Source: Streptococcus ovuberis (lineage in GTDB: Bacteria; Bacillota; Bacilli; Lactobacillales; Streptococcaceae). Taken from it: a stretch of 64,000 nucleotides of DNA. Within the stretch, counting starts at the first letter, position 1, and each line of letters starts with the position of its first letter. Under the pieces are notes generated by a model, which saw only the letters and a list, made by a program, of their open reading frames with translations, had not been told where the DNA came from and made no database searches. The translations under genes and the position numbers were made by a program. Location of the stretch: NCBI RefSeq assembly GCF_012396585.1, contig NZ_JAAXPR010000006.1, forward strand, positions 28,993-92,992, read 5' to 3'. Below are positions 5,085 to 40,963 of the stretch, in pieces.

Positions 5085-7323
5085 GGTAAATGGAATGAGT
5101 TGTGCTTCCTGTGCAGCTAGGGTGGAACGAACCGTTAGTCAATTGGCAGATGTGGCCAGCGCCCAGGTTAATTTAGCCACAGAGTATTTGACTGTTGAAA
5201 GCTATCGTGCGGATTTTGACTGGCAGACCGTTGTAGATGCTGTTACAGCAGCCGGTTATGAAGCGATTCCTAAGGTCAAAAATCAGCGTCAAAGCTATCA
5301 AGCAGACCAAGGCTATCAGGAGAAACAGAGTAAGGCTCTTAAAAGAAAAGTAATCTGGGCAATGGTGTTTGCCCTCCCCTTGCTCTACCTATCAATGGGA
5401 AGTATGCTCGGATTACCGATCCCCAACCAATTATCCCCAGATATAGCTCCCATGGCTTTTGCGTTGATACAGCTGGCTTTAACCGTACCAGTGATGTGGT
5501 TTGGGCGTGATTTTTACCGGAGGGGCTTTCGCAATCTTCTCAAAGCCCACCCGAACATGGATAGCCTGATAGCTGTAGGGACAGGTGCGGCCTTTCTCTA
5601 TGGGCTTTATGCTGTTTGGGCTATTGGCCAGGGGGAGAATCATTTTGCGCACCATCTCTACTTTGAGTCGGTAGGGGTGATTATCACTTTGATTTTGCTT
5701 GGGAAATTTTTGGAGTTGAGAGCGAAACGCCAGACCTCTCAGGCGATTGAGCGCCTAATGGACTTGTCTCCTAAGACAGCGACGGTGGTGCGTCGTGGAC
5801 AGGCGGTCGAGATTGATACAGAGGACATTCGGTTGGGAGATGTGGTACGGGTCAAGCCTGGTGGCATCATCCCTGTGGATGGACGCGTGCTCATAGGTGA
5901 AACGGCTGTGGATGAGTCCATGATTACCGGAGAGAGTATGCCTGTCAATAAGACAGTAGGCGATAATGTCATTAGTGCAACCATCAATCAGCATGGCAGC
6001 ATTGACTACGAAGCAACCAAGGTGGGGGAAGATACGACCCTCTCCAAAATCATCCGACTGGTCGAAGACGCACAAGGCTCTAAAGCACCAATTGCGGCAT
6101 TGGCAGATAAAATCTCCCTTTACTTTGTTCCGATGGTCATTGGGTTGGCAGTGTTAGCCAGTGCCTTTTGGTATTTTGCCAAAGGTGGTGATTTCAGTTT
6201 TGCGCTCCAGATCTTTGTGTCTGTCTTAGTGATTGCTTGCCCTTGTGCGCTGGGATTGGCAACGCCCACGGCCATTATGGTGGGGACCGGTAAGGGAGCG
6301 GAGCACGGGATTTTGGTCAAGTCGGGCCAGGCCCTAGAGACAGCCCATCATGTGGATACTATCGTCTTAGACAAGACAGGCACCATTACAGAAGGCAAAC
6401 CCCAAGTAACAGATGTGCTTGCTATGGCACCATGGCAGGAAAGGGATATCTTAGCGCTAGCGGCTGCTTGTGAGGCGGGTTCAGAGCACCCTGTGGCACG
6501 GGCGATTTTAAGCCATGTTGCAACTGTTTTGCCGGACAAATCAGAGGAGTCACGTTTAAGAGTAACGGATTTTCAGGCCGTCCCAGGACAGGGCATTATC
6601 GGCCGCTACCATCAAGCTCCGGTAGCTTTTGGCAATGAAAAGCTGATGACCGAGCAAGCTGTAACCATCGACGCTCTCAGCCAGACAGCGCAAAGGCTGG
6701 CCGAGGCAGGTAAGACACCGATTTACTTGGCTCTTGACCAGCAGGTGATTGGTCTAATCGCTGTCGCAGATCCAATCAAAGAAACCAGTCGAGAAGCTAT
6801 CGCTGAAATGAAAACTCTGGGGCTAGAGGTGGTCATGTTGACAGGGGATCACGAGGCGACTGCTCAAGCTATCGCTGAAGAAGTCGGGATCACTCAAGTT
6901 TTCAGTCAGGTCTTACCAAAGGATAAGGCACAGATTGTCCAAGACTTGCAGGCTGCGGGTCGACAGGTCGCTATGGTCGGTGATGGAATCAACGATGCTC
7001 CCGCTCTGGTTCAAGCTGATCTTGGTTTAGCCATCGGTTCGGGAACGGATGTTGCGATAGAGTCTGCGGACATGGTGCTGATGCGGGCTAATCTTCAAGA
7101 CGTGCTGACAGCTCTAAAATTGAGTCAAGTGACCCTCAGCACCATCAAAGAGAACCTCTTTTGGGCCTTTGCGTATAACTTGCTAGGGATTCCAGTAGCC
7201 ATGGGTCTCCTCTACCTTTTCGGTGGTCCCCTGCTGGATCCTATGTTAGCAGGCCTTGCCATGAGTTTGAGCTCTGTCTCTGTATTAGCCAATGCCCTGA
7301 GGTTGAAGAGCCGGAAACTGTAG
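5065..7323 (+). CDS. copA: Copper-exporting P1B-type ATPase CopA
   Basis: A 752-residue P-type ATPase that pumps Cu(I) out of the cytoplasm. One N-terminal heavy-metal domain has GMSCASC (Cys about 13 and 16). Eight membrane helices follow, with the Cu(I) translocation motif CPC in [11 protein letters not shown]. The phosphorylation site is [11 protein letters not shown], the P1B signature is [10 protein letters not shown], and the hinge is [16 protein letters not shown] stands just before ATG 5065, which fits better than the in-frame ATG at 5050. The gene overlaps copY. No copZ chaperone gene follows, although copZ is the usual third gene in many streptococcal cop operons. Confidence 0.94.
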
Positions 7324-25856: not shown

Positions 25857-26885
25857 TCAACTATGAGTTTCTAGTTTTTTTACGGACTGTCGAACCACTA
25901 AGCGGGTATTGATACGGGTCTGTGTTTGATTAATTTCACCATTTTTGATGATGGAGACAGCTTTTTCAAGAGCTTTTGTCACCATAAACTGACGATTGAT
26001 ATCAATGGTGGATAATTCTGGTGTGATAATGACGGATTCTGAAATGTTGTCAAATCCGATGACAGAAACATCTTCAGGAACGCGAATGCCGGCAGCTTGG
26101 AGAGAGCGAATCAGGCTGATGGCGATAGAATCGTTCTCACAAAAAAAGGCCGTTGGCAATGTGGAAGAAGGAATCTTATCAGGATAAGTTCCAATAGAAT
26201 TAGCAGGAAAACGTAAGCGCTGAAATTGTTTGGAATCCAGATTGTATTTTTTCATAGCTCCTTCAAAACCTTGATAACGCTCTTGAAAATTTTGAATCCG
26301 ATATTTTGCCATGGCGTAGCCAATGTCCTTATGGCCATTTTGAATCAGATGTTCCGTAGCAAGGAAAGCCCCTTGATAGTTATTAATGCTAATGAAATTA
26401 CTATTAAGATGATCGAAACAAGTATCGATGACAATAATGTGATGGTGTAATTCTTTAAGAGCGATTAAAATACTCTCAGGAAGATCGGTCCCGAGTAAAA
26501 TAATGGCATCTGAAGCTTGCTGGCTTTCAAGGGTCATTAGATCTTCTTTAAGATGGCTAATGGAAATAGAATTAACAGTAAGATGAATGTGAAAATCAGT
26601 AGAAAGTACCAAAAAGTCATTGATCAACTCATTGAAATGAGGTAGTTTTTGAAAATTATAAGTGAATCGATTGATGTCATTGCAGGCCAATAGACGGACC
26701 GTATAGCGATAGGCCTCCCTCTCTTTTTTTCTGGACTGCCGTAATGGCTGATAATCGTTTTCTTTAACGAGTTGGAGAATTTCCGCCCTTTTTTTCTGAC
26801 TGACACCGGGTTTATCATTTAAAACGAGCGAGACTGTTGCCTTTGAAACCCCGGCCAATCGAGCAATATCTTCTAGCTTTATCAT
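25857..26885 (-). CDS. LacI-family repressor of the islet
   Basis: A 342-residue LacI/GalR regulator: HTH IKLEDIARLAGVSKATVSLV at residues 2-21, hinge region near residue 50, then a periplasmic-binding-protein-like effector domain (NNYQGAFLATEHLIQNGHKDIGY; VPEDVSVIGFDN). AAGGA precedes ATG 26885; nine earlier in-frame codons lack a ribosome site. It is divergent from the transketolase operon, and a perfect 17-bp palindrome lies between them. A near copy of that palindrome precedes the esterase operon, so it probably controls both. The effector is not known. Confidence 0.87.
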   Translation of the reverse strand: MIKLEDIARLAGVSKATVSLVLNDKPGVSQKKRAEILQLVKENDYQPLRQSRKKEREAYRYTVRLLACNDINRFTYNFQKLPHFNELINDFLVLSTDFHIHLTVNSISISHLKEDLMTLESQQASDAIILLGTDLPESILIALKELHHHIIVIDTCFDHLNSNFISINNYQGAFLATEHLIQNGHKDIGYAMAKYRIQNFQERYQGFEGAMKKYNLDSKQFQRLRFPANSIGTYPDKIPSSTLPTAFFCENDSIAISLIRSLQAAGIRVPEDVSVIGFDNISESVIITPELSTIDINRQFMVTKALEKAVSIIKNGEINQTQTRINTRLVVRQSVKKLETHS

Positions 26886-26944
26886 AATCTTGTCCTTGGT
26901 AGTTAGTGTCATTCAAGTATAAGTGAAAACAAACGATGTGTCAA

Positions 26945-27022
26945 TTAGTTTACTAAACTAAAATAAAATAAGTTTATTTTTTATTAAAAACGCTTGCAAG
27001 AAAATCGTGTGGGTTTTAAAAT
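26945..27022 (+). promoter_or_regulatory. LacI-type operator, cre-like site and promoter of the transketolase operon
   Basis: TTAGTTTACTAAACTAA (26945-26961) is a perfect 8+1+8 palindrome. TTGCAA (26994-26999) and TAAAAT (27017-27022) form a promoter with 17-bp spacing. AAAAACGCTTGCA overlapping the -35 box resembles a CcpA cre site (about three mismatches). Confidence 0.7.
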
Positions 27023-27153
27023 AAGCTTGTAAAATCCTTTCAGTCAGAAAGGGATGGTTTAGAATAACGGAATACCTAAGCGCTATAGAAAGTATAGAAG
27101 GGAGTAGTTGTCAATCTTTGTGTGGGGTATTTCAGTAAGGAGAATGTCTAAAA

Positions 27154-27987
27154 GTGAATTTATTAGATTTAAAACGTAAAGCTATTGAGCTTCGAAAAGA
27201 TTTTGTGACCATGATCTACGAGGCAGGAGCAGGCCATGTAGGATCGGACTTGTCTTGTACTGATATTTTAGTCAGTCTTTATTATCACCAACTTCATGTT
27301 GATCCAACTAATCCAGAAGCCCCTGAACGGGACCGCTACATCCAAAGTAAGGGGCATGCTGTTGAGATCCTTTGGGCTATTTTAGCGGATAAGGGGTTTA
27401 TTGAAAAGGAAGAATTAAAAACCTTCTCTCAATTTGATTCACGCCTATTAGGGCATCCGAATAATCTTGTTGATGGGATTGAGATGAACACAGGTTCATT
27501 AGGGCATGGCTTGTCTGTTTCCGTCGGGAGTGCTTTGGCAGCTAAATTAGATGGGGCTAGCTATCAGACTTATACGCTGATGGGGGATGGTGAATTGGCC
27601 GAAGGCTCTGTTTGGGAAGCAGCGATGGCGGCTGCTCAATATAAGCTGGATAATTTGACAGCTATTATTGACCGCAATGGACTTCAAATTACTGGGTCTA
27701 CGGAAGATGTCATGGGACTAAAAGATCTTCATGGCAAATGGGAAGCTTTCGGTTGGCATGTGGTTGATGTGGCAGATGGCAATGACATCGAGCAATTATT
27801 AGCTGCATATAATGACAAGATTGAAGGTAAACCAATGGTTATTATTGCGAATACCTTAAAAGGAAAAGGAGTATCTGCGGCAGAAGGAATGGCAAGTTGG
27901 CATCACCATGCTCTTAATCACGAAGAGTATGAGGCGGCAATTGCTGACCTAGATCGAGCGTTGGAGGAGTTAGGAAATGGCAAATAA
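27154..27987 (+). CDS. Transketolase, N-terminal (TPP-binding) subunit
   Basis: A 277-residue half-size transketolase. It holds the thiamine-diphosphate half: HVGSDLSCTDILVSLYYHQL, GHGLSVSVGSALA and the GDG...N motif GDGELAEGSVWEAAMAAAQY ending in DRNG. Split transketolases occur in sugar-specific operons, including those for D-apiose (apulose-4-phosphate transketolase, AptA/AptB). It starts with GTG, with AAGGAG about 11 bases upstream; no other in-frame start is near. It overlaps the C-terminal subunit gene by 11 bp, which favours equal synthesis of both. An ordinary pentose-phosphate role is possible. Confidence 0.9.
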   Translation: MNLLDLKRKAIELRKDFVTMIYEAGAGHVGSDLSCTDILVSLYYHQLHVDPTNPEAPERDRYIQSKGHAVEILWAILADKGFIEKEELKTFSQFDSRLLGHPNNLVDGIEMNTGSLGHGLSVSVGSALAAKLDGASYQTYTLMGDGELAEGSVWEAAMAAAQYKLDNLTAIIDRNGLQITGSTEDVMGLKDLHGKWEAFGWHVVDVADGNDIEQLLAAYNDKIEGKPMVIIANTLKGKGVSAAEGMASWHHHALNHEEYEAAIADLDRALEELGNGK

Positions 27988-28915
27988 GATAGCCAACAGA
28001 GCAGTAATGTGTGATGTTTTAGTAGAAGCAGGCCAAACTAATAAAGATATTGTGGTCCTAACCAGTGACTCAAGAGGGTCGGCTTCTCTTGTCAAATTTG
28101 GGGAGACCCTACCTGAACAACACATAGAAGTCGGAATCGCTGAGCAAAATATAGTGGGTGTGGCAGCTGGATTAGCTCTCAACGGGAAACGTCCTTTTGT
28201 AGCATCGCCCGCATGTTTTCTTAGTATGCGAAGCATTGAGCAAGTTAAAGTTGACGTGGCTTATTCTAACCAGAACGTGAAATTGGTCGGAATTAGCGGG
28301 GGCGTCAGCTACGGTGCTCTGGGAATGAGTCACCATTCCCTTCAAGATATTGCGGTGACGCGGGCCATTCCAAATTTAGAAGTTATTATTCCGGCAGACC
28401 GTCATGAAACAAAAGCAGTTTTTGAATACTTAGTCAAGTCAGACAAGCCAGCCTACATTCGTCTTGGCCGAAATCCAGTTGAAGATTGCTTCACAGCTGA
28501 TAATGTTGTTTTTGAAATTGGGAAAGCGCGTGAGATGGTATCGGGAGATGACATCACGATTGCAGCAGTTGGCGAAACGGTCCGAGTGGCTATGGATGCT
28601 GCGGAAAACTTGGCAAATGAGGGGATAAAAGCACGGGTTCTCAATTTTGCAAGTTTAAAACCATTTGATACAGAGGCTGTAAAAAAAGCAATCACAGAGA
28701 CAGCAGGTATTGTGTCTGTTGAAGAACATAGTTCGCATGGAGGGCTCGGAGAGGCAATTGCATCGGTTGTTGCGCAAGAAGGTCGTGGTATTTTAAAAAT
28801 AATGGCGTTGCCAGACGATCACATTGTCACTGGGACAACCGCAGAAGTTTTCAATCACTATGGTATATCGGTTGACGGTATCAGTCAATCTGTTAAAGAA
28901 CTTTTAAAAAGGTAG
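27977..28915 (+). CDS. Transketolase, C-terminal (pyrimidine-binding) subunit
   Basis: A 312-residue partner of the preceding subunit. The catalytic Glu that activates TPP is in EVGIAEQNIVGVAAGLALNG. SMRSIEQVKVDVAYSNQNVK and the C-terminal HSSHGGLGEAIASV region complete the pyrimidine-binding and C-terminal domains. Together with the N-terminal subunit it would move a two-carbon unit from a ketose phosphate to an aldose phosphate. It overlaps the upstream gene and lies 7 bp before the isomerase gene. Confidence 0.9.
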   Translation: MANKIANRAVMCDVLVEAGQTNKDIVVLTSDSRGSASLVKFGETLPEQHIEVGIAEQNIVGVAAGLALNGKRPFVASPACFLSMRSIEQVKVDVAYSNQNVKLVGISGGVSYGALGMSHHSLQDIAVTRAIPNLEVIIPADRHETKAVFEYLVKSDKPAYIRLGRNPVEDCFTADNVVFEIGKAREMVSGDDITIAAVGETVRVAMDAAENLANEGIKARVLNFASLKPFDTEAVKKAITETAGIVSVEEHSSHGGLGEAIASVVAQEGRGILKIMALPDDHIVTGTTAEVFNHYGISVDGISQSVKELLKR

Positions 28916-28922
28916 GTAAAAA

Positions 28923-30359
28923 ATGGATAAAGTAACTTTAGGATTTGCTCCAACACGTCGCAATTTGTTTAGTGCAGATGCAGCTATTGAGTATGCTAAT
29001 TACACCCGCGAAAAATTAGATGAATGGGCTATTGATTACATTGATATCAAGGATATTAATGAAGATGGGTTGATTTTTGATGATGCTAGTGTCAACGCTG
29101 CTGCTGAAAAATTTAAGGCTGCAGGAATTGATGGCCTCTTTATCGCTAACGAAAACTTTGGCACAGAATACGCAGTTGCACGCTTGGCAAAACAGCTTGA
29201 TGTGCCTGTCTTGCTCTGGGGCCCGAAAGATGAAACGCCAGCCGAAGACGGTTCTCGTCTGCGTGACAGTCAGTGTGGCCTTTTTGCCATCGGAAAAGTG
29301 TTGCGCCGTTTCAAGGTACCTTTTACCTATATCAAGAACTCTGATGTGGACGACCCTGCGTTTGAACGTGGTGTGAAAGATTTTGTTAAGGTTTGTAATG
29401 TTGTCAAAACCTTTAAAAACACCCGTATTTTACAAGTTGGTCCTCGTCCATTTGACTTCTGGACGGTTATCTGCAATGAGGGAGAGTTGTTGGAACGATT
29501 CAACATCGACTTATCACCAGTTCCAATCCGTGAATTGGTCAATGAAATCAATCGTGTTAAGGCTGAAGAAGCTGAAACAGTAAAATCGGTCGAAGACTGG
29601 TTCCATACACATACAGAGGTTCAAATTACAGCAGATGAATTGACCATGGTTGCTGCTTTAAAAGTAGCTCTTGAAAATTTGTGCAAGTTTTACGGTTGTA
29701 ATGCGGGTGTCATTCAGTGTTGGACAGCTCTTCAAGAAGAAATCGGTATTTTACCTTATGCATCCTTATCTCTTTTGCAAGAAGAAGGCATTCCATTTGT
29801 CTGTGAAACAGATGTTCATGGGGCAATCTCAGAACTTCTAGTAGAAGCTGCATCTATGGGAGAGCATCGCGCGATATTTGCTGATGTGAACTGTCGCCAC
29901 CCAGAAAATCCAAATGGTGAATTGCTCCAACATTTAGGGGTGTTTGCTTATCAAACAGCTGAAACCAAACCAATTTTGCCACCACGTCATTTTGTCTTTG
30001 ATTATCCTGGTTCTGTTGGCTTCCTAGCTAAGAAAACAGATTATACCTTGTGTCGCTTTGATGGGGATAATGGAGAGTATTCTTTATTGATTGGTAACGC
30101 CAAGGGCATTGACGGCCCATACAACCAAGGGACCTACTGTTATGTCGAATTTGACAATTTGAACCGTTTAGAATCGCACTTAGTGTATGGCCCTTACATC
30201 CATCACGTGGCAGCCATTCAGTCTGATGTCGTTCCAGTGCTTTATGAAGCTTGTAAATATCTGGGAATCAAAGCAGACCTCTACGATCCAATCGAAGATG
30301 AAGTGAAGGCGTACTTGGCTGGGGATGATGCAACCTACTTCCGTCCCGCTCGAGGCTAA
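28923..30359 (+). CDS. Sugar isomerase of the L-fucose/L-arabinose isomerase superfamily
   Basis: A 478-residue protein with the three-part layout of fucose isomerases. LGFAPTRRNLF opens an N-terminal Rossmann domain; a second alpha/beta domain contains ILQVGPRPFDFWTVICNEGE; and the C-terminal beta-barrel part has metal-site motifs such as CETDVHGAIS and ADVNCRHPENP. It is shorter than classical FucI (about 590 residues) and belongs to the smaller family members. No fuculose-phosphate aldolase gene is present, so L-fucose is unlikely as the substrate. In this operon it most likely converts an aldose to the ketose used by the following kinase. The substrate is inferred, not shown. Confidence 0.83.
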   Translation: MDKVTLGFAPTRRNLFSADAAIEYANYTREKLDEWAIDYIDIKDINEDGLIFDDASVNAAAEKFKAAGIDGLFIANENFGTEYAVARLAKQLDVPVLLWGPKDETPAEDGSRLRDSQCGLFAIGKVLRRFKVPFTYIKNSDVDDPAFERGVKDFVKVCNVVKTFKNTRILQVGPRPFDFWTVICNEGELLERFNIDLSPVPIRELVNEINRVKAEEAETVKSVEDWFHTHTEVQITADELTMVAALKVALENLCKFYGCNAGVIQCWTALQEEIGILPYASLSLLQEEGIPFVCETDVHGAISELLVEAASMGEHRAIFADVNCRHPENPNGELLQHLGVFAYQTAETKPILPPRHFVFDYPGSVGFLAKKTDYTLCRFDGDNGEYSLLIGNAKGIDGPYNQGTYCYVEFDNLNRLESHLVYGPYIHHVAAIQSDVVPVLYEACKYLGIKADLYDPIEDEVKAYLAGDDATYFRPARG

Positions 30360-30363
30360 GCCT

Positions 30364-31812
30364 ATGACTTATGTGATAGGGATTGATCAAAGCACTCAGG
30401 GAACGAAGGTACTCCTTTTTGATCAAGAAGGAAATATTGTAAAGAAGGTCAGCAAATCACATCAGCAATTAGTCAACGAAAAAGGTTGGGTGTCTCATGA
30501 TCCATTAGAGATTTATAACAATGTGTTATCTCTTGTTCGAGAAATCGTTGTTGGGATTGATAAAACTGAAATAAAAACCGTTGGAATCACCAATCAAAGA
30601 GAGACTGCCTTGGTCTGGAATAGAAAGACAGGGTTGCCAGTCGAGAATGCCATTGTCTGGCAATGTGCCCGAGCCAAGGAGATAACAGATAGCTTCAATA
30701 TTTCTCAGGCTTCTATGGTCAAACGAAAAACAGGTTTGCCCTTGTCACCTTATTTTTCAGCGGCTAAATACGCTTGGATTCTGAGACAGATGGATGAATT
30801 GCCCGAAGAGTTAGCTTGTGGAACAGTAGATTCATGGTTGGTCTATCAATTAACCAAAGGGGAGTCTTTCGTTACAGATGTTTCCAATGCTAGTCGGACA
30901 CAGTTAATGAATTTAACGACCTTATCGTGGGACGAAGAACTTTGTCACCTCTTTGACATCTCAAGGTCTTACCTCCCTGACATTAAGCCATCTGACAGTC
31001 ATTTTGGTTGGACAGACTTTGATGGAATTCTTCCTGCTACGATTCCTATTCATGCCGTGATCGGGGATTCTCATGCAGCACTTTTTGCCCACAAAGGTGA
31101 GCAACCAGGAGCTATCAAGGCAACATATGGAACAGGTTCCTCTATTATGATGAATATTGGAACAGAGGTCAGTATGATCCCTAACCATCTTGCAGTCTCG
31201 GTTGGTTGGCAGTCTCAAGGAATATGTCATTATGTTCTTGAGGGGAATGTTAATTACTCAGGAGCTGTCATTACTTGGTTACAAGAACAGGTGGGGCTGA
31301 TAAAATCAACGGATGAATTAGAAGACCTGGTTGCACAAGCTAGACCAGAAGACCAAACCTACCTTATTCCAGCTTTTTCGGGATTGGGGGCACCCTATTT
31401 TAGAGATGATATCACCGCTTCCTTTGTAGGAATGACCCGCATAACTGGTCGTGCTGAACTGGCTAAAGCAACTTTGGAAAGCATCGCCTATCAGATCAAC
31501 GCTGTGATTAGCGCAATGAAGGATGTTTCCAATTTACCGATTAAACAAATTAGTGTGGATGGTGGTCCAACTAAAAATCAGTACCTCATGCAATTTCAAA
31601 GTAATTTGACTAATGCAGAGATTGCCATTGCCACTATTGAGGAGGCCTCTTGCACAGGCGTCGCTTATATGGCAGGGATATCTTGTGGAGCTTATTCAGA
31701 ACATATTCTTGACCAATTGAGTAGCCATCGAATTTCTCCTGAACCTTCCTTTGCTTCTATTCGTTTGGAAAAGCTGGCAGGTTGGAACCAGGTCGTTAAT
31801 CGTTTGTTATAG
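30364..31812 (+). CDS. FGGY-family ketose kinase
   Basis: A 482-residue two-domain ATP-dependent sugar kinase. It has the phosphate-1 loop GIDQSTQGTKVLLFD, a GITNQRETALVWNRKTG block like glycerol kinase, the catalytic Asp region IGDSHAALFA, the adenosine motif YGTGSSIMMN and a C-terminal DGGPTKNQYLMQFQ signature. It starts 4 bp after the isomerase stop; an upstream in-frame ATG inside the isomerase gene lacks a ribosome site. Its glycerol-kinase-like features might suit a branched or short ketose such as apulose. It is the last gene of the operon, followed by a large terminator. Confidence 0.87.
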   Translation: MTYVIGIDQSTQGTKVLLFDQEGNIVKKVSKSHQQLVNEKGWVSHDPLEIYNNVLSLVREIVVGIDKTEIKTVGITNQRETALVWNRKTGLPVENAIVWQCARAKEITDSFNISQASMVKRKTGLPLSPYFSAAKYAWILRQMDELPEELACGTVDSWLVYQLTKGESFVTDVSNASRTQLMNLTTLSWDEELCHLFDISRSYLPDIKPSDSHFGWTDFDGILPATIPIHAVIGDSHAALFAHKGEQPGAIKATYGTGSSIMMNIGTEVSMIPNHLAVSVGWQSQGICHYVLEGNVNYSGAVITWLQEQVGLIKSTDELEDLVAQARPEDQTYLIPAFSGLGAPYFRDDITASFVGMTRITGRAELAKATLESIAYQINAVISAMKDVSNLPIKQISVDGGPTKNQYLMQFQSNLTNAEIAIATIEEASCTGVAYMAGISCGAYSEHILDQLSSHRISPEPSFASIRLEKLAGWNQVVNRLL

Positions 31813-31822
31813 TTTTTAGTGC

Positions 31823-31886
31823 CAAAGCGTAATAGAGTGAGCAGACTAACCTCACGGGAGTCTGTTCCATTCTATTACGCTTTTTG
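31823..31886. terminator. Large branched terminator after the kinase
   Basis: AAAGCGTAATAGA pairs perfectly with TCTATTACGCTTT, with an inner AGACT/AGTCT stem. T-run TTTTT on the plus side. It separates the operon from the convergent AraC gene. Confidence 0.85.
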
Positions 31887-31957
31887 AGCATGGCGGGCGG
31901 ATGAGCGATTTAATGGAATAGAACATCCAGTGTCACCGCTTTAAACTTTTTGAAGAC

Positions 31958-32959
31958 TCACATAGAATTTATACTACTGTTATCTAATCGGTATTGTGCA
32001 GGTGTCATCCCATAGCGTGCTTTAAAGAGTTTATAGTACTGATTCAAGTTTGAAAACCCTGAATCGATAGCGATATCTTGTATAGAAACAGAAGAATGGA
32101 GCAAGGGAATCAAGCTGACTTCGAGCTTTTTGGAATGAAGCAATTGTTTAAATGTTAAGCCAGTAGTTTGCTTGACAAGTTGGCTAAAGTAACTGCTATT
32201 ATAGCCAAATTGTTTGGCACACTCAGATAGTGTTGCTGTCAAGTAATGATGGTCGATGAAACTTAAAATATCTAACGTGAGTTGTTGTTTATTGCTATCT
32301 TCACTGATACCGTTAGCTTCTACAGAGAAAGAGTTGACCAATTCTAAAAGAATGAGTTGCAAAAAATGACTGGATACTTGCGTGTGGTATTGTGTTGGGA
32401 AATACGTTTCATGGAGTAGCTGCTGGAATAGAAGGTGTAGGTAATTAGTGTTGGTGCTACGAAAGATAAGGTATTGATTGTGGTGACGACTTTCGGAGAT
32501 TGCTTGAAAGAGAAATTGAGATAAGGCTGAAAAGTTTTGGGAGAGATTCAAAAAGTGTTGCTTAAAATACTCTTGGGTGACATTGATGCTGATAATAATA
32601 TCTTCTAGACCAACTTCGCTAGCTTCATGACTAGTGTTGGTATCAATGATGATTAAATCCCCTTGATTAAGCGTAATTGTTTTTTCATTCACTTTGTGTT
32701 GCCCTGTTCTTTTATAAACGTAATTTATTTCAATGACATCTGTGACATGTTCTGGTACAGGCACGAATCGACTTTGTTTTCTTATATAAAAGGGAGCAAT
32801 CTTTTCAAGAGGAAAATTTTTATAGGAAAAATGGTAGATGGCTCTATTTTGAATAGTTGTCATTGGATGTTTGTAATAATCAGGAACATCATTTTCAAGA
32901 TAGCGTTTTTCGCTATCGGTCAATGCATACAACTGTTTCTCTAATTGCTCGAAGTTCAT
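31958..32959 (-). CDS. AraC-family regulator
   Basis: A 333-residue protein. The N-terminal part has a cupin-like sensor domain (VIEINYVYKRTGQHKVNE followed by LNQGDLIIIDTNTSHEAS). The C-terminal 100 residues hold the double HTH (LSECAKQFGYNSSYFSQLVK and SIQDIAIDSGFSNLNQYYKL, ending ARYGMTPAQYR). It is divergent from the esterase/GH140-like/PTS operon with about 135 bp between, so it is probably an activator of that unit in addition to the LacI repressor. Confidence 0.87.
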   Translation of the reverse strand: MNFEQLEKQLYALTDSEKRYLENDVPDYYKHPMTTIQNRAIYHFSYKNFPLEKIAPFYIRKQSRFVPVPEHVTDVIEINYVYKRTGQHKVNEKTITLNQGDLIIIDTNTSHEASEVGLEDIIISINVTQEYFKQHFLNLSQNFSALSQFLFQAISESRHHNQYLIFRSTNTNYLHLLFQQLLHETYFPTQYHTQVSSHFLQLILLELVNSFSVEANGISEDSNKQQLTLDILSFIDHHYLTATLSECAKQFGYNSSYFSQLVKQTTGLTFKQLLHSKKLEVSLIPLLHSSVSIQDIAIDSGFSNLNQYYKLFKARYGMTPAQYRLDNSSINSM

Positions 32960-33018
32960 TGAATACTCCTGAAAAAATGATAGTTAATTTCTAATGATTT
33001 GATAGTTCTATTTTAACA

Positions 33019-33076
33019 TGAAAACGCTATAATCATTATTAAGTCAATGAATTATTTTCTTAGTTTACTAAACAAA
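33019..33076 (+). promoter_or_regulatory. cre site and second LacI-type operator before the esterase operon
   Basis: TGAAAACGCTATAA (33019-33032) fits the cre consensus TGWAANCGNTNWCA with one mismatch. TTAGTTTACTAAACAAA (33060-33076) differs from the perfect palindrome at 26945 in one base of the right half. It lies between the divergent AraC and esterase genes. Confidence 0.72.
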
Positions 33077-33094
33077 AAAATGATAGGGGGATTT

Positions 33095-34003
33095 ATGAAA
33101 TATTTTGAGAGAAAATTAGGTCAAAATGGTGCATATGCGAAATACTATTTTCAAGAACCTAGCCATGAAATCGACTTACAGCGTAAGTACCCAACGATCG
33201 TGGTTTGTCCGGGTGGTGCTTACTTTTGGACCTCATTTCGAGAAGATGAACAAGTGGCGTTACGCTTCTTAGCGGAAGGGTTCCATGTTGTTGTGGTTCA
33301 TTATGCAACAGAAGGTCAGGCAGCTTATGCTAGTGATAATCCTGATGAACTTCCTAAAAATCCAGTATCTGTTTTTCCAAATCCTCTTGTTGAATTAGCA
33401 ACAGCAGTTGCTTATTTGAGAGAAAATGCAGAGACCTACAATGTTGACGAGGACTTTATCGTCGTCTCTGGCTATTCTGCTGGAGGAAATCTAGCGGGTC
33501 AATTGGCGACTATGTGGCATGAAGAATGGCTAGAAGAAAAAGTTGGAAAGAAAAAAGACCTGTACCGTCCAACGCACGCGATGCTTGGTTATGCTGCACT
33601 AGATTTTAATGCTTCGGGTGAGCAAGAAGGTCGTCTCAATAAAGTAGCATTAGCTGCGACAGGTCATCTGCACGGTAATAAAGAAATCAGTGAGGCGATG
33701 AATCCGATTAGCCACGTTTCGGATAAAACCCCACCGTGCTTTATCTGGCACACACGTGAGGATGTCCTTGTTCCTGCTAATAATGCGCTTCGGTTTGCCT
33801 TAGAACTTGAAAAACAGGGTGTCGCTTATGAGGTACATGTTTTTGATAAAGGAAAACATGGTCTAGTATTAGGTGATTTACGGACAGGAATCAAGGCAAG
33901 TAATAAAAATGCGCAAGTCTATAAATGGGTTGATTTATTCCTCGAATGGTTGTATCCCATAAAGACAGATCGTGGTGGTTTTTACCAGTCTATAGACGGT
34001 TAG
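33095..34003 (+). CDS. Alpha/beta-hydrolase esterase (acetyl/feruloyl-esterase-like)
   Basis: A 302-residue hydrolase of the BD-FAE/acetyl-esterase type. VVCPGGAYFWTSF supplies the oxyanion region, SGYSAGGNLAGQL the nucleophilic Ser, REDVLVP the Asp and KGKHGLVLG the His. There is no signal peptide, so it acts in the cytoplasm. AGGGGG precedes ATG 33095; an in-frame ATG at 33047 would place the operator inside the gene and has no ribosome site. First gene of the operon with the GH140-like enzyme and the PTS permease, where it may remove acyl groups from imported glycosides. Confidence 0.83.
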   Translation: MKYFERKLGQNGAYAKYYFQEPSHEIDLQRKYPTIVVCPGGAYFWTSFREDEQVALRFLAEGFHVVVVHYATEGQAAYASDNPDELPKNPVSVFPNPLVELATAVAYLRENAETYNVDEDFIVVSGYSAGGNLAGQLATMWHEEWLEEKVGKKKDLYRPTHAMLGYAALDFNASGEQEGRLNKVALAATGHLHGNKEISEAMNPISHVSDKTPPCFIWHTREDVLVPANNALRFALELEKQGVAYEVHVFDKGKHGLVLGDLRTGIKASNKNAQVYKWVDLFLEWLYPIKTDRGGFYQSIDG

Positions 34004-34018
34004 TAAAAGGAGAAAATG

Positions 34019-35362
34019 ATGTTTCAAGTCGCAAAAGGGCAGCGCTATTTTACACGAGACAGTAGACCTATCTTTTATCTAGCAGATACTTGTTGGAGTG
34101 CTTTTACGAATATCTCAGAAGAGGATTGGGAATATTATTTAAATTATCGTCGTGAGCAAGGCTTTAATGTTATCCAAGTGAATATGCTGTGGCAATGGGA
34201 TGCAAGCAGTTCACGTCTAGATGTTTTACCTTTTCATCAATTGGACAATGGGCATTTTGATTTTTCTTGCCCTAATAAGGATTATTTTGATAGAGCGGAA
34301 CGGATGATAGCTAAAGCTTATGAGAAAGGGATCACAATAGCTCTTGTCTTACTCTGGGCCAATTATGTTCCAGATACGTGGGCTAGTCAAATGAATATCA
34401 GGCAAGTTGGTTTGTTTCCCAAAGAGTGTATTGAGGATTACGTGACAGATGTCGTTTCGCGTTATGACCAATATAACCCCCTTTATATCATTAGTGGGGA
34501 TACTGATTTTCAGACTCAAGAAGTTATTGAAGATTATTATGGCAAGGCGCTAAAGAAAGTAAAGGAATTGTCGCCAGATGCTTTGACAGCAATGCATATT
34601 AGAGGACGTTACAAGGAGATTCCGGATTACTTTTTGAAGGATGAATCCATTGATTTTTATATGTACCAATCTGGGCACAATCAACAATTTCAAGAAACTG
34701 CTTATACTCTGGCGGACTACTTTTATCAGAAGATGCCAATTAAGCCTGTTATCAATTCAGAACCTTGCTATGAATTGATGGGATATAGTCGACGTGAATA
34801 TGGACGCTTTGATCGGAGAGATGTGAGGAAAATTGCTTGGCAAAGTGTTCTGTCAGGTGCGCATGCAGGAATCACCTATGGTGCACATGGGATCTGGAGC
34901 TGGCATGATGAGAGTCTTGTTTTTGACTCGTCCATTGGTGAGGCTTTTGAAACGCCTTATGATTGGCGGGATGCTTTAAAATTTGAAGGGGCCTTTGATT
35001 ATGGTTTTGTAAGACATTTTTTTGAATCAGAAGACTTATTTGATATCGCTCCAGCACAGCACTTGTTACTTAATGGGAAGTCAAATACTGAAGGAATGCT
35101 ACAGTCTAGCGAATTTCAAAAATCCGTGTCTACAGAGATAAGGGTGGCAGAAAATGATAGCTTAATCCTTGTATACATTCCATCAAATATTCAAGTCAAG
35201 CTTTTTGGAGATTACAGTAAGCAGAGTGCTTATTACCTGGATCTGGACAAAAATAGGAGAGCGGAAGCGACTGGTGTATTCAATTCAGAAAAGAATCAAA
35301 CCACTTTTAAGATGTCGCGCTTTGTCCAGGATACCTTATTAGTTATCAGTAAAAAAATCTAA
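34019..35362 (+). CDS. Cytoplasmic DUF4038/GH140-like hydrolase (putative apiosidase)
   Basis: A 447-residue TIM-barrel protein resembling the DUF4038 apiosidase-like family, whose characterised GH140 members cleave apiose from rhamnogalacturonan II side chains. Visible landmarks: FYLADTCWSAFTNISEEDWE near the start, FNVIQVNMLWQWD, IISGDTDFQ (Asp about 161 and 163), and INSEPCYE (Glu about 248), the expected placement of catalytic acidic residues on beta-strands 4 and 7. A C-terminal beta-domain (about 345-447) follows. No signal peptide is present, unlike the secreted Bacteroides enzymes, so it should act on PTS-imported sugar. ATG 34016 and 34019 are both possible; the second has better spacing to AAAGGAG. 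Confidence 0.72.
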   Translation: MFQVAKGQRYFTRDSRPIFYLADTCWSAFTNISEEDWEYYLNYRREQGFNVIQVNMLWQWDASSSRLDVLPFHQLDNGHFDFSCPNKDYFDRAERMIAKAYEKGITIALVLLWANYVPDTWASQMNIRQVGLFPKECIEDYVTDVVSRYDQYNPLYIISGDTDFQTQEVIEDYYGKALKKVKELSPDALTAMHIRGRYKEIPDYFLKDESIDFYMYQSGHNQQFQETAYTLADYFYQKMPIKPVINSEPCYELMGYSRREYGRFDRRDVRKIAWQSVLSGAHAGITYGAHGIWSWHDESLVFDSSIGEAFETPYDWRDALKFEGAFDYGFVRHFFESEDLFDIAPAQHLLLNGKSNTEGMLQSSEFQKSVSTEIRVAENDSLILVYIPSNIQVKLFGDYSKQSAYYLDLDKNRRAEATGVFNSEKNQTTFKMSRFVQDTLLVISKKI

Positions 35363-35407
35363 AAAATTGATAGTCTTTTTCTAAAACAGAGGTAGTTACA
35401 ATGAGTT

Positions 35408-35421
35408 GGAAAACGATTACA
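35408..35421 (+). promoter_or_regulatory. cre-like site before the PTS gene
   Basis: GGAAAACGATTACA differs from the cre consensus TGWAANCGNTNWCA only at the first position. It lies 44 bp before the EIIBC start, within the 89-bp gap after the hydrolase gene, and suggests separate catabolite control of the permease. Confidence 0.55.
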
Positions 35422-35451
35422 ATTAAAGTATCATAAAAAAGGGGAAGGCTT

Positions 35452-36809
35452 ATGACAAACGAAACATTAGCTCAAAATATCCTAGATCTCGTTGGAGGTC
35501 CAGAAAATGTGACACGTGCTACACACTGTGCAACTCGCCTAAGGCTTGTTCTAAAAGATGAAAGTAAGGTTCAAAAAGAGGCGATTGACGGCTTAGAAAA
35601 AGTCAATGGAAGCGTCTTTGCGGGTGGGCAGTATCAAGTGATTATTGGTTTGACTGTTCCTGCAGTCCATGAGGCATTTTTAAAGGCTATGGGGACTCCA
35701 ATGACAGATGTGGAAGCTCCATCTGAGAAAGAACAAGGGAATCTTTTTAATCGCTTTTTCAAGAGTATTGTAGGGATTATGACACCCACATTTGGCATTA
35801 TGGGGGCGGCTGGTATCTTGAAAGGATTACTGGCCCTTGCAGTTGCTATGAAACTCTTGCAACCAACGGATGGGGCCTATCAAATTTGGTACGCTGTGGC
35901 ACAAAGTTTCTTTTATTTTTTACCTATATGGGTTGGATTCAACGCCAGTAAGGTGTTTGGTGGCAGTCAATTTATAGGTGCAGCGCTTGGTGCTTCCCTC
36001 GTGTTTCCCGACATCATTGCCTTACAGACTGCTGGTGAGAGCATTTCCTTCTTTGGTATCCCAGTTGTTCTGGTCAACTATACGCAGTCTCTGTTTCCTG
36101 CGATGGTTGCGGCTTTTGTAGCAGCTAAAATCGAAAAATTCTTGCTAAAAGAATTCATGAAACAGTCAGTTGGATGTTTACACCGCTCATGACTATAGTG
36201 ATTACAGCGCCTTTGGCTTTCTTGGTTTTGGGTCCTGTCATGACACAATTATCAAACGGTTTAGCTACTATTGTGATGGCTATCTATAATTTCAGTCCGA
36301 TTCTTTTTGGAATTATTGGAGGTGCTTTTTGGCAAGTAGTTGTTATTTTTGGATTGCATTATGCTTTTATTCCTGTACTCATTAATAATATTACGAATCT
36401 TGGACAAGATCCTATTAATGCTGTTTTCCAGGTCACAGTATTTGCTTTAGCTGGTGCCGCTATTGGGTTTGCATTGAAGACCAAAAATGCGAAAAATAAA
36501 TCTATGGGCTATTCCGTTGGTATTACAGGATTGATTGGTATCACAGAACCGATTATCTACAGCGTAGCTCTTCCGTATCGTCGTCAATTCGTTTATGCCT
36601 TTATTTCAGGAGGAATGGCTGGTGCCATCCAAGCCTTTGCGAATGCTAAAATCTACGGTTTCGGAAATGGTGGATTGATGGCATTTCCATTATTCATTGA
36701 CCCACAAACCAACAGCTTGCACAGCATGTATTCCTTTATAATTGCAGCAGCAGTAGCATTCTTTGTTCCAATTATTTTGAACTTTGTTTTGGGAACTGGT
36801 GAAGATTGA
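35452..36809 (+). pseudogene. PTS EIIBC (beta-glucoside type), split by a frameshift
   Basis: The first frame (35452-36192) encodes EIIB (GGPENVTRATHCATRLRLVL, active Cys) and the first half of EIIC. The second (overlapping, to 36809) begins in frame at RIHETVSWMFTPLMT and continues with GLHYAFIPVLINNI and GITEPIIYSVALPYRR to the end. The two halves join seamlessly if one A is restored to the AAAA run at 36147-36150, giving a normal EIIBC of about 452 residues. No EIIA domain follows. As sequenced the permease is broken; a sequencing error, a homopolymer phase switch or -1 slippage could rescue it. It belongs to the Bgl family, which transports glucosides, and its role here would be import of the islet's substrate. 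Confidence 0.85.

Positions 36810-39514: not shown

Positions 39515-40963
<1,449 letters not shown>

Follow-up and report, generated by a model that had tools for sequence, protein, structure and literature searches.

An islet at positions 25857-36809 of a 64,000-nucleotide stretch of Streptococcus ovuberis DNA is probably an apioside-utilisation system. The stretch (contig NZ_JAAXPR010000006.1, positions 28,993 to 92,992 of the forward strand) is called the window below and is numbered from its first letter. In the proposed scheme an apiosyl glucoside is taken up by the phosphotransferase system (PTS) and cleaved by a cytosolic hydrolase of glycoside hydrolase (GH) family 140; an isomerase, a kinase and a two-subunit transketolase follow. 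Context lends the apiose reading strong support; the enzyme roles are predicted. The islet is a widespread variant of a known route, the D-apiose transketolase pathway with AptA/AptB and AplK, which was reportedly described by Carter et al. in 2018. Parsley, celery, liquorice and grape are common sources of apiosides, and apiose is also a component of pectin, in rhamnogalacturonan II.

Called from open reading frames (ORFs), with protein families assigned using Pfam and NCBIfam, the islet consists of two divergent units. In the first, a LacI-family gene runs leftward, and genes for the N-terminal and C-terminal transketolase subunits, the isomerase and an FGGY kinase run rightward. These rightward frames overlap or almost touch, and their 3' end carries a hairpin and a T run. 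In the second, an AraC-family gene runs leftward and genes for an esterase, a PF13204 (GH140) hydrolase and a PTS EIIBC run rightward. The original prediction had named these genes; the ORFs and family searches confirm them at the stated positions, in two divergent units and with the permease spread over two frames. The known pathway on which it drew has no aldolase, and none is found among the ten islet proteins scanned. Its central claim, that the locus handles an apioside and its apiose, now has independent support from context: co-occurrence with GH140, binding proteins and enterobacterial clusters.

Proposed route

The beta-glucoside-type EIIBC would phosphorylate glucose C6 of an apiosyl-(1->2)-glucoside, and the esterase would strip acyl groups from the glycoside. 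The GH140 enzyme, whose family, catalytic pair and context are observed and whose activity is predicted, would then free D-apiose. An enzyme of predicted arabinose/fucose isomerase fold, with invariant residues, would turn D-apiose into D-apulose at a metal site. The kinase would yield D-apulose 4-phosphate, from which the AptA/AptB-like transketolase would shift a two-carbon unit to glyceraldehyde 3-phosphate, giving dihydroxyacetone phosphate and xylulose 5-phosphate. This last reaction is that of the known pathway; it is the lineage of the transketolase that is observed here.

GH140 and glycoside supply

The DUF4038 protein, likened to GH140 by the original prediction, does belong to that family: PF13204 ('Apiosidase') matches it with 310 bits, the cut-off being 26.5. 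Its D162 and E249 correspond in the alignment to Asp187 and Glu284 of BT_1012, which an excerpt of PMC4032388 gives as the proposed catalytic pair of that enzyme. BT_1012 is a beta-apiosidase that has a signal peptide and acts on rhamnogalacturonan II (PMC7939467, excerpt). No signal peptide is visible by eye on the window enzyme; no predictor was run.

Of 295 genomes from the order, 18 encode the isomerase and 15 a PF13204 protein. All 15 lie within the 18, and none of the 277 isomerase-negative genomes has a GH140 gene (Fisher p 1.4e-22; the genomes are not independent, PF13204 spanning 7 genera and the isomerase 10). Distances to the isomerase gene are 77-5854 bp for 14 of the 16 PF13204 genes; the other two are on other contigs. 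The same association was followed in a set of core loci, the best 80 of 471 isomerase-related stretches in genome contigs. GH140 proteins, of the window type or diverged, occur in 18 of the 80 (three diverged ones confirmed by Pfam), and a DUF5060-Apiosidase-DUF5605 protein occurs in nine others (three of the nine Pfam-checked).

EIIBC is read in two frames in the window. Streptococcus sp. S784/96/1 (locus L003) and S. suis AP_SS21 (L004) each have it as a single frame; S. moroccensis (L002) has an open frame whose start region is without a match. The two PTS pieces of the window reach only position 449 of the 618 in the IIABC model, so no EIIA domain is encoded. Judging from the broken frame, the window Streptococcus itself may have lost uptake.

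Isomerase

The original prediction assigned the isomerase to the fucose isomerase family. The predicted fold, over the whole chain, fits the L-arabinose/L-fucose isomerase superfamily, but the Fucose_iso_C score is 22 bits, under the cut-off of 29.3; the superfamily placement therefore rests on the fold. Residues E295, D321, H337, H427 and H428, candidates for the metal site, are invariant in 47/47 sequences. The original prediction had contrasted the enzyme with the TIM-barrel isomerases of apiose and proposed a non-orthologous replacement; the window isomerase may replace the published ApsI or may be related to it. The sole NCBIfam match is the sulfoquinovose isomerase SftI, at 95 bits against a cut-off of 700. 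Sequence searches of the PDB with the window isomerase and with its counterpart from Rahnella gave nothing at E 0.001.

Transketolase

A tree of 122 concatenated N+C pairs (FastTree, local supports; midpoint-rooted, and also rooted on six full-length transketolases) places 79 core pairs in one clade with support 1.0, whose sister is two clostridial pairs. The core pairs join the enterobacterial Apt pairs and those of Caballeronia, Rhizobium and Streptomyces in a group of 90 taxa (support 1.0; 0.997 with the full-length root). Ordinary split transketolases fall apart from this group. The original prediction had linked the islet enzyme to AptA/AptB, and tree and residues agree with this; the grouping with ordinary pentose-phosphate enzymes that it had named as a refuting outcome is not seen.

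Two positions of the C subunit separate the groups. They are L and H in 79/79 core pairs and in all six Apt-type pairs (five enterobacterial, one Caballeronia), and D and Q in 30/30 ordinary split enzymes. The D and Q positions are presumably D469 and Q474 of E. coli transketolase, in the substrate channel; the window subunit has L115 and H120. L and H are also present in three Rhizobium/Streptomyces pairs and in the two clostridial sister pairs, so the residues mark the entire clade and not apiose alone. The split form by itself was dropped as an apiose marker, since it is generic: in the phylum, 129 of the 149 genomes encode a relative of the N half. The original prediction had treated a split transketolase and an FGGY kinase as signs of apiose use. 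Membership of the Apt-type clade upholds part of this, but the split form is common and the kinase lies outside the AplK lineage.

Two clostridial loci (L181, 3900-12022; L182, 6897-12904) encode two transketolase pairs apiece, and in both loci it is the second pair that branches as sister to the core transketolases. In Rhizobium and Streptomyces (L118, L120, L121) an Apt-like transketolase accompanies an AplK-like kinase (38-42%), in Rhizobium with ABC (ATP-binding cassette) importer genes.

Kinase

The window kinase scores under both NCBIfam GlpK cut-offs (501 bits against 590, and 496.5 against 498). On the GlpK equivalog with the cut-off of 590, AplK scores 495, the Listeria kinase 484 and six GlpK proteins 736-748 bits. 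Two pocket residues are S,S in 80/80 core and AplK kinases, the window enzyme included, and Q,F in 9/9 GlpK (six of the nine verified by NCBIfam). We take these positions to be Q246 and F270 of GlpK, which touch glycerol. The HOCH2-C(OH)-CH2OH unit of apulose is glycerol with the hydrogen at C2 replaced by a hydroxyacetyl group. An enzyme acting on it would need room at C2, which would explain both the recruitment of a glycerol kinase relative and the serine pair.

In a FastTree phylogeny (midpoint-rooted, local supports) the core kinases split into groups of 18 and 58, the window kinase being in the latter, and AplK forms a third. The group of 18 comes from Enterococcus, Listeria, Vagococcus, Marinilactibacillus, Amphibacillus and Ruminiclostridium; its support is just 0.57, and it is placed near GlpK with support 0.39. 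The residue patterns of the two enzymes suggest how, through a few changes, a glycerol kinase and a transketolase came to be re-shaped for a branched sugar.

An S,S kinase is also encoded in locus L183 (3517-9800), together with a LacI-family regulator, a 30% relative of the isomerase and GH95; no transketolase was found adjacent.

Distribution of the core and other supply routes

The four-gene core is widespread in Firmicutes, including gut, food and pectin-degrading bacteria; the islet is not an oddity of the single Streptococcus in which the original prediction placed it, and Listeria has one as well. With a mechanical ORF caller, transketolase C was found in 76 of the 80 core loci, transketolase N in 71 and the kinase in 72, and 75 loci gave a clean transketolase pair; flanks are cut by contig ends in 37. 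Carriers are Streptococcus, Enterococcus, Listeria, Vagococcus, Marinilactibacillus, Amphibacillus, Lachnospiraceae, Pectinatus and Ruminiclostridium, and lactobacilli are added among the 120 matches listed of 5346 protein hits. Within Streptococcus the islet is rare (4 of 247 genomes, its own included).

In 11 of the 80 loci an ABC importer with DUF2291 adjoins the core. Its binding protein is 54-64% identical to a protein of Rhizobium etli plasmid p42f, which is the protein of PDB 5ibq; the ligand in that structure is, we take it, D-apiose. Four genes lie between the R. etli gene and that of OiaX, a 3-oxo-isoapionate-4-phosphate decarboxylase and an enzyme of apiose breakdown. The binding protein of Ruminiclostridium L062, the one among the 11 that was compared with the PDB, scores 393 bits against 5ibq and 198 against the first ribose-binding protein. 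The DNA covered in these 11 loci encodes no PF13204 protein. Set against the PTS/GH140 loci, they point to two supply routes: the whole glycoside via PTS and GH140, or the free sugar via ABC import.

A third kind of neighbour is a nucleoside-hydrolase-like protein of the Sde182 type (PF07632). It replaces GH140 in Enterococcus loci L009 (13647-15125) and L011 (13645-15111) and also lies by the core in L003, L045, L065 and L066, with a shorter piece in L002; the assignment was Pfam-checked in three of these seven loci (L003, L009, L066). From their position, PF07632 proteins are a candidate second apiofuranosidase family. Altogether 43 of the 80 loci encode one or more of three markers, namely a PF13204 protein, an apiose-type binding protein and a PF07632 protein. 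Five loci have a cluster of rhamnosidase-like proteins close to the core (two of the five Pfam-checked), in keeping with the Rha-Api linkage in pectin given in an excerpt of PMC7939467.

Comparable clusters occur in enterobacteria. E. coli strains with an SE15-type cluster grow on D-apiose, the SE15 cluster being the query in that study (PMC13001218, excerpt). In Rahnella (CP042359), Sodalis (pHS1) and Klebsiella (CP110761), an ABC set that includes DUF2291 is accompanied by a transketolase pair and an FGGY kinase. A protein of the L-fucose/L-arabinose isomerase family, 28-29% identical to the window isomerase, is encoded in all three between AptB and the kinase. The Rahnella and Sodalis proteins resemble those of SE15 (AptA 78-79%, AptB 73-76%, kinase 72%, permease 55-56%). 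A Caballeronia cluster combines an SE15-like binding protein (66%), DUF2291, a transketolase pair and a dehydrogenase; no isomerase lies within the 12.8 kb seen there, as in E. coli.

Alternative explanations

Several observations weigh against apiose as the substrate. Thirty-seven of the 80 core loci have no PF13204 protein, apiose-type binding protein or Sde182-like hydrolase nearby (20 of the 37 have cut flanks), and several are flanked by unrelated genes. Apiosidase activity has been demonstrated for part of the PF13204 members only. The transketolase clade is wider than apiose: it takes in Rhizobium, Streptomyces and the two clostridial pairs, which have no assigned substrate and mostly carry the diagnostic residues. 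Clostridial L181, which also encodes a 30% isomerase relative and transaldolase-like and GH43-like proteins, gives that clade another context. The window N half is up to 54% identical to many clostridial split enzymes and 46% to AptA. An Apt-like pair in Erwinia (L122; 71-78%) has no isomerase, importer or kinase beside it. The E. coli SE15 cluster, as excerpted from PMC13001218, consists of AptA, AptB, AplK and two oxidoreductases, with no isomerase, and the Rahnella and Sodalis binding proteins are just 42-44% like that of SE15. The core kinase of Ruminiclostridium L062 passes both GlpK cut-offs (599 bits on the 590 model). The window kinase falls outside the AplK clade in the tree though it has the same S,S pair, so it is better regarded as a variant with the same proposed function than as an orthologous member. 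With the window permease disrupted and the start of the S. moroccensis copy unmatched, this strain may be unable to take up the substrate through its permease.

Some of these points would fit a core that serves another sugar of apiosides or pectin, such as an ordinary pentose or a deoxy sugar. GH140 would then be one of several feeding hydrolases, the isomerase would act on a pentose, and the transketolase would be an additional enzyme of the pentose phosphate pathway. The 37 loci without an apiose marker, the fold shared with L-arabinose isomerase and the clade members of no assigned substrate can all be cited for it. We nevertheless regard it as unlikely. No GH140 gene occurs without the isomerase among the 295 genomes, the binding proteins of 11 loci resemble the R. 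etli apiose protein and, in L062, fit it far better than a ribose-binding protein, the islet has no epimerase gene, and the kinase and transketolase residues are common to the E. coli apiose cluster. The homologous Listeria kinase is annotated 'glycerol kinase', and a system for glycerol or dihydroxyacetone could also be read from the GlpK score of 501 bits, from the L062 kinase and from the 38 PDB matches listed for the kinase, 29 of which, the top-scoring ones among them, carry the name glycerol kinase. Such a system is very improbable here: the window kinase stays under the GlpK cut-offs, a separate GlpK is encoded in the genome, the two residues that touch glycerol in GlpK are serine, and the isomerase, transketolase and GH140 would serve no purpose in glycerol use. 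A sulfoquinovose transketolase (sulfo-TK) pathway is scarcely credible. It has in its favour the SftI match and the fact that SqvD is of the FucI family and SqwGH a transketolase (PMC9594981, excerpt). However, the SftI cut-off is far from reached and the islet carries GH140. The route as described in excerpts, from which SqwGH is compared by description, has no kinase step and needs SqwI and sulfoacetaldehyde enzymes, none of which are among the islet genes.

Apiosides thus remain the preferred substrate. A broader proposal, to which we give an even chance, is that Firmicutes have an apiose pathway of their own. It would comprise a D-apiose isomerase of arabinose/fucose isomerase fold, an apulose kinase derived from glycerol kinase and an Apt-type transketolase, coupled to a PTS in lactic acid bacteria and Listeria with intracellular apioside hydrolysis. 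The Listeria genes lmo1030-1036 would be an apioside operon, and PF07632 a second, nucleoside-hydrolase-like apiofuranosidase family in loci without GH140. This gives a testable substrate for an operon widespread in gut, food and plant-associated Firmicutes and bears on which bacteria eat which plant compound in the gut and in fermented food. The publications excerpted here label the operon as glycerol kinase, beta-glucosidase, amylase or hypothetical; a lineage-variable islet of Listeria monocytogenes is among the cases.

Regulation

The pattern TTAGTTTANTAAACWAA occurs at two places only in the whole 2.47 Mb genome, both in the islet; the reversed control gives 0. A perfect palindrome sits between the lacI and transketolase genes; the other copy, with one mismatch, precedes the probable start of the esterase gene. 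The operator has an odd centre, so an even-length palindrome search missed it; it was noticed by eye and then tested. As the second site is inside the called esterase ORF, the true esterase start is likely 33080 or 33095. The two copies would link the two operons as one regulon through predicted binding, and a single LacI-type repressor likely controls both operons via both palindromes.

S. moroccensis retains both sites (7013 and 14129 in L002) and Streptococcus sp. S784/96/1 the first (7088 in L003), and Enterococcus raffinosus (L013) has a perfect copy at 6522-6539, about 100 bp before its isomerase gene. The S. suis AP_SS21 locus has no site at two mismatches or fewer, and its one three-mismatch match is no better than shuffles. 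An 18-base form of the operator is present in 7 of 186 loci, but four of the seven repeat regions already represented by the window, L002 and L003. Two matches in the window resemble the catabolite-responsive element (cre), against 2.67 expected from shuffles; both are within the two promoter regions.

Islet features and neighbourhood

Table 1. Features of the Streptococcus ovuberis islet and one neighbouring gene, in window coordinates
Feature	Position	Strand	Basis or remark
LacI-family regulator	25857..26912	-	Peripla_BP_3 110 bits, LacI 59 bits; likely repressor for both operons
17-bp perfect palindrome TTAGTTTACTAAACTAA, likely LacI-family operator	26945..26961	.	Genome pattern search
cre-like (CcpA) site	26985..26998	+	One mismatch to the consensus; weak
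Transketolase N-terminal (thiamine diphosphate, ThDP) subunit, AptA-like	27154..27987	+	Pfam, tree, residues
Transketolase C-terminal subunit, AptB-like	27977..28915	+	Pfam, tree, residues L115 and H120
Putative D-apiose isomerase, L-arabinose/L-fucose isomerase fold	28923..30359	+	
Putative D-apulose kinase, glycerol-kinase-like FGGY	30325..31812	+	NCBIfam, PDB matches, tree, pocket residues
Terminator-like hairpin, 13-bp arms then T run	31824..31884	+	Spotted by eye
AraC-family regulator	31958..32959	-	ORF and Pfam
cre-like site, one mismatch	33019..33032	+	
Second operator-like site TTAGTTTACTAAACAAA, one mismatch	33060..33076	.	Genome pattern search
Alpha/beta-hydrolase esterase (BD-FAE)	33047..34003 as called	+	Pfam/NCBIfam; putative deacylating role
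GH140-family hydrolase, putative intracellular beta-apiosidase	34016..35362	+	PF13204, catalytic pair
PTS beta-glucoside-type EIIB and first part of EIIC	35452..36192	+	Pfam/NCBIfam
Remainder of EIIC, other frame	36174..36809	+	Gene disrupted in window
Neighbouring GH1 enzyme, outside islet proper	39515..40939	-	GH1 428 bits

The GH1 gene and a second PTS EIIBC adjoin the islet; judging from its family, the GH1 enzyme is possibly a phospho-beta-glucosidase for the leftover glucoside phosphate. A full-length transketolase and a GlpK (736.6 bits) are encoded elsewhere in the same genome, so the islet enzymes are additional to the housekeeping ones. Between 24500 and 38500 no Rfam family reaches its gathering threshold, and promoter and terminator scans yield about as much as in shuffled sequence. 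The loop limit of the terminator scan was 8, and the hairpin is absent from its list.

The islet is not equally conserved along its length. Compared with S. moroccensis, identity is 99% for the isomerase, 96-98% for the transketolase, 74% for the kinase, 70% for the esterase and 80% for GH140; the window kinase is 88% identical to that of Streptococcus sp. S784/96/1. This mosaic suggests recombination within the islet.

Comparison with known systems

In Listeria monocytogenes NCTC7974 (L114, 4004-13086) a cassette encodes LacI, isomerase, two transketolase subunits, a 'glycerol kinase', a beta-glucoside PTS IIBCA and a DUF4038 protein. The record is labelled a plasmid yet carries chromosomal genes, for example rnjA. 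Like the window islet, the cassette has a LacI gene, an isomerase (61%), transketolase subunits (65-67%), a kinase (40%), GH140 (48%) and a beta-glucoside PTS; it differs in having the PTS annotated as IIBCA in one gene and in lacking AraC and the esterase. From gene order we take it to be lmo1030-1036, which appears to be the same system as the islet. Excerpts of PMC2996996 and PMC8079631 name these genes as glycerol kinase, beta-glucoside PTS, and hypothetical or beta-glucosidase.

A glycan cluster of Lactobacillus jensenii, compared by its description in an excerpt of PMC10711310, shares the fucose isomerase, DUF4038, DUF5060 and transporters. It differs by an alpha-rhamnosidase, and the paper interprets it as alpha/beta-amylase and mucin-related; from the described content, apiose or rhamnogalacturonan looks the likelier substrate. 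The open-licence literature searched yielded no text on 'apulose' and no description of the islet as an apiose pathway; among the papers listed for apiose isomerase and transketolase, PMC13001218 alone concerns the topic.

The window hydrolase shares the PF13204 domain and the proposed catalytic Asp/Glu pair with the GH140 beta-apiosidase BT_1012 (PDB 3kzs). Unlike that enzyme of rhamnogalacturonan II, which has a signal peptide, it shows none and is encoded beside a PTS. With the sulfo-TK pathway (SqvD, SqwGH) the islet has in common a FucI-family isomerase and a transketolase; the kinase is found only in the islet and the sulfonate enzymes only in the sulfo-TK pathway.

The closest parallel is the D-apiose transketolase pathway. 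Both have a kinase and a dedicated two-subunit transketolase of the same supported clade, with shared residues and no aldolase gene. Supply differs: the window and other Bacilli use a PTS and a GH140 enzyme with no visible signal peptide, in place of ABC import of free apiose. The window kinase is of another lineage, and the isomerase belongs to the arabinose/fucose isomerase superfamily.

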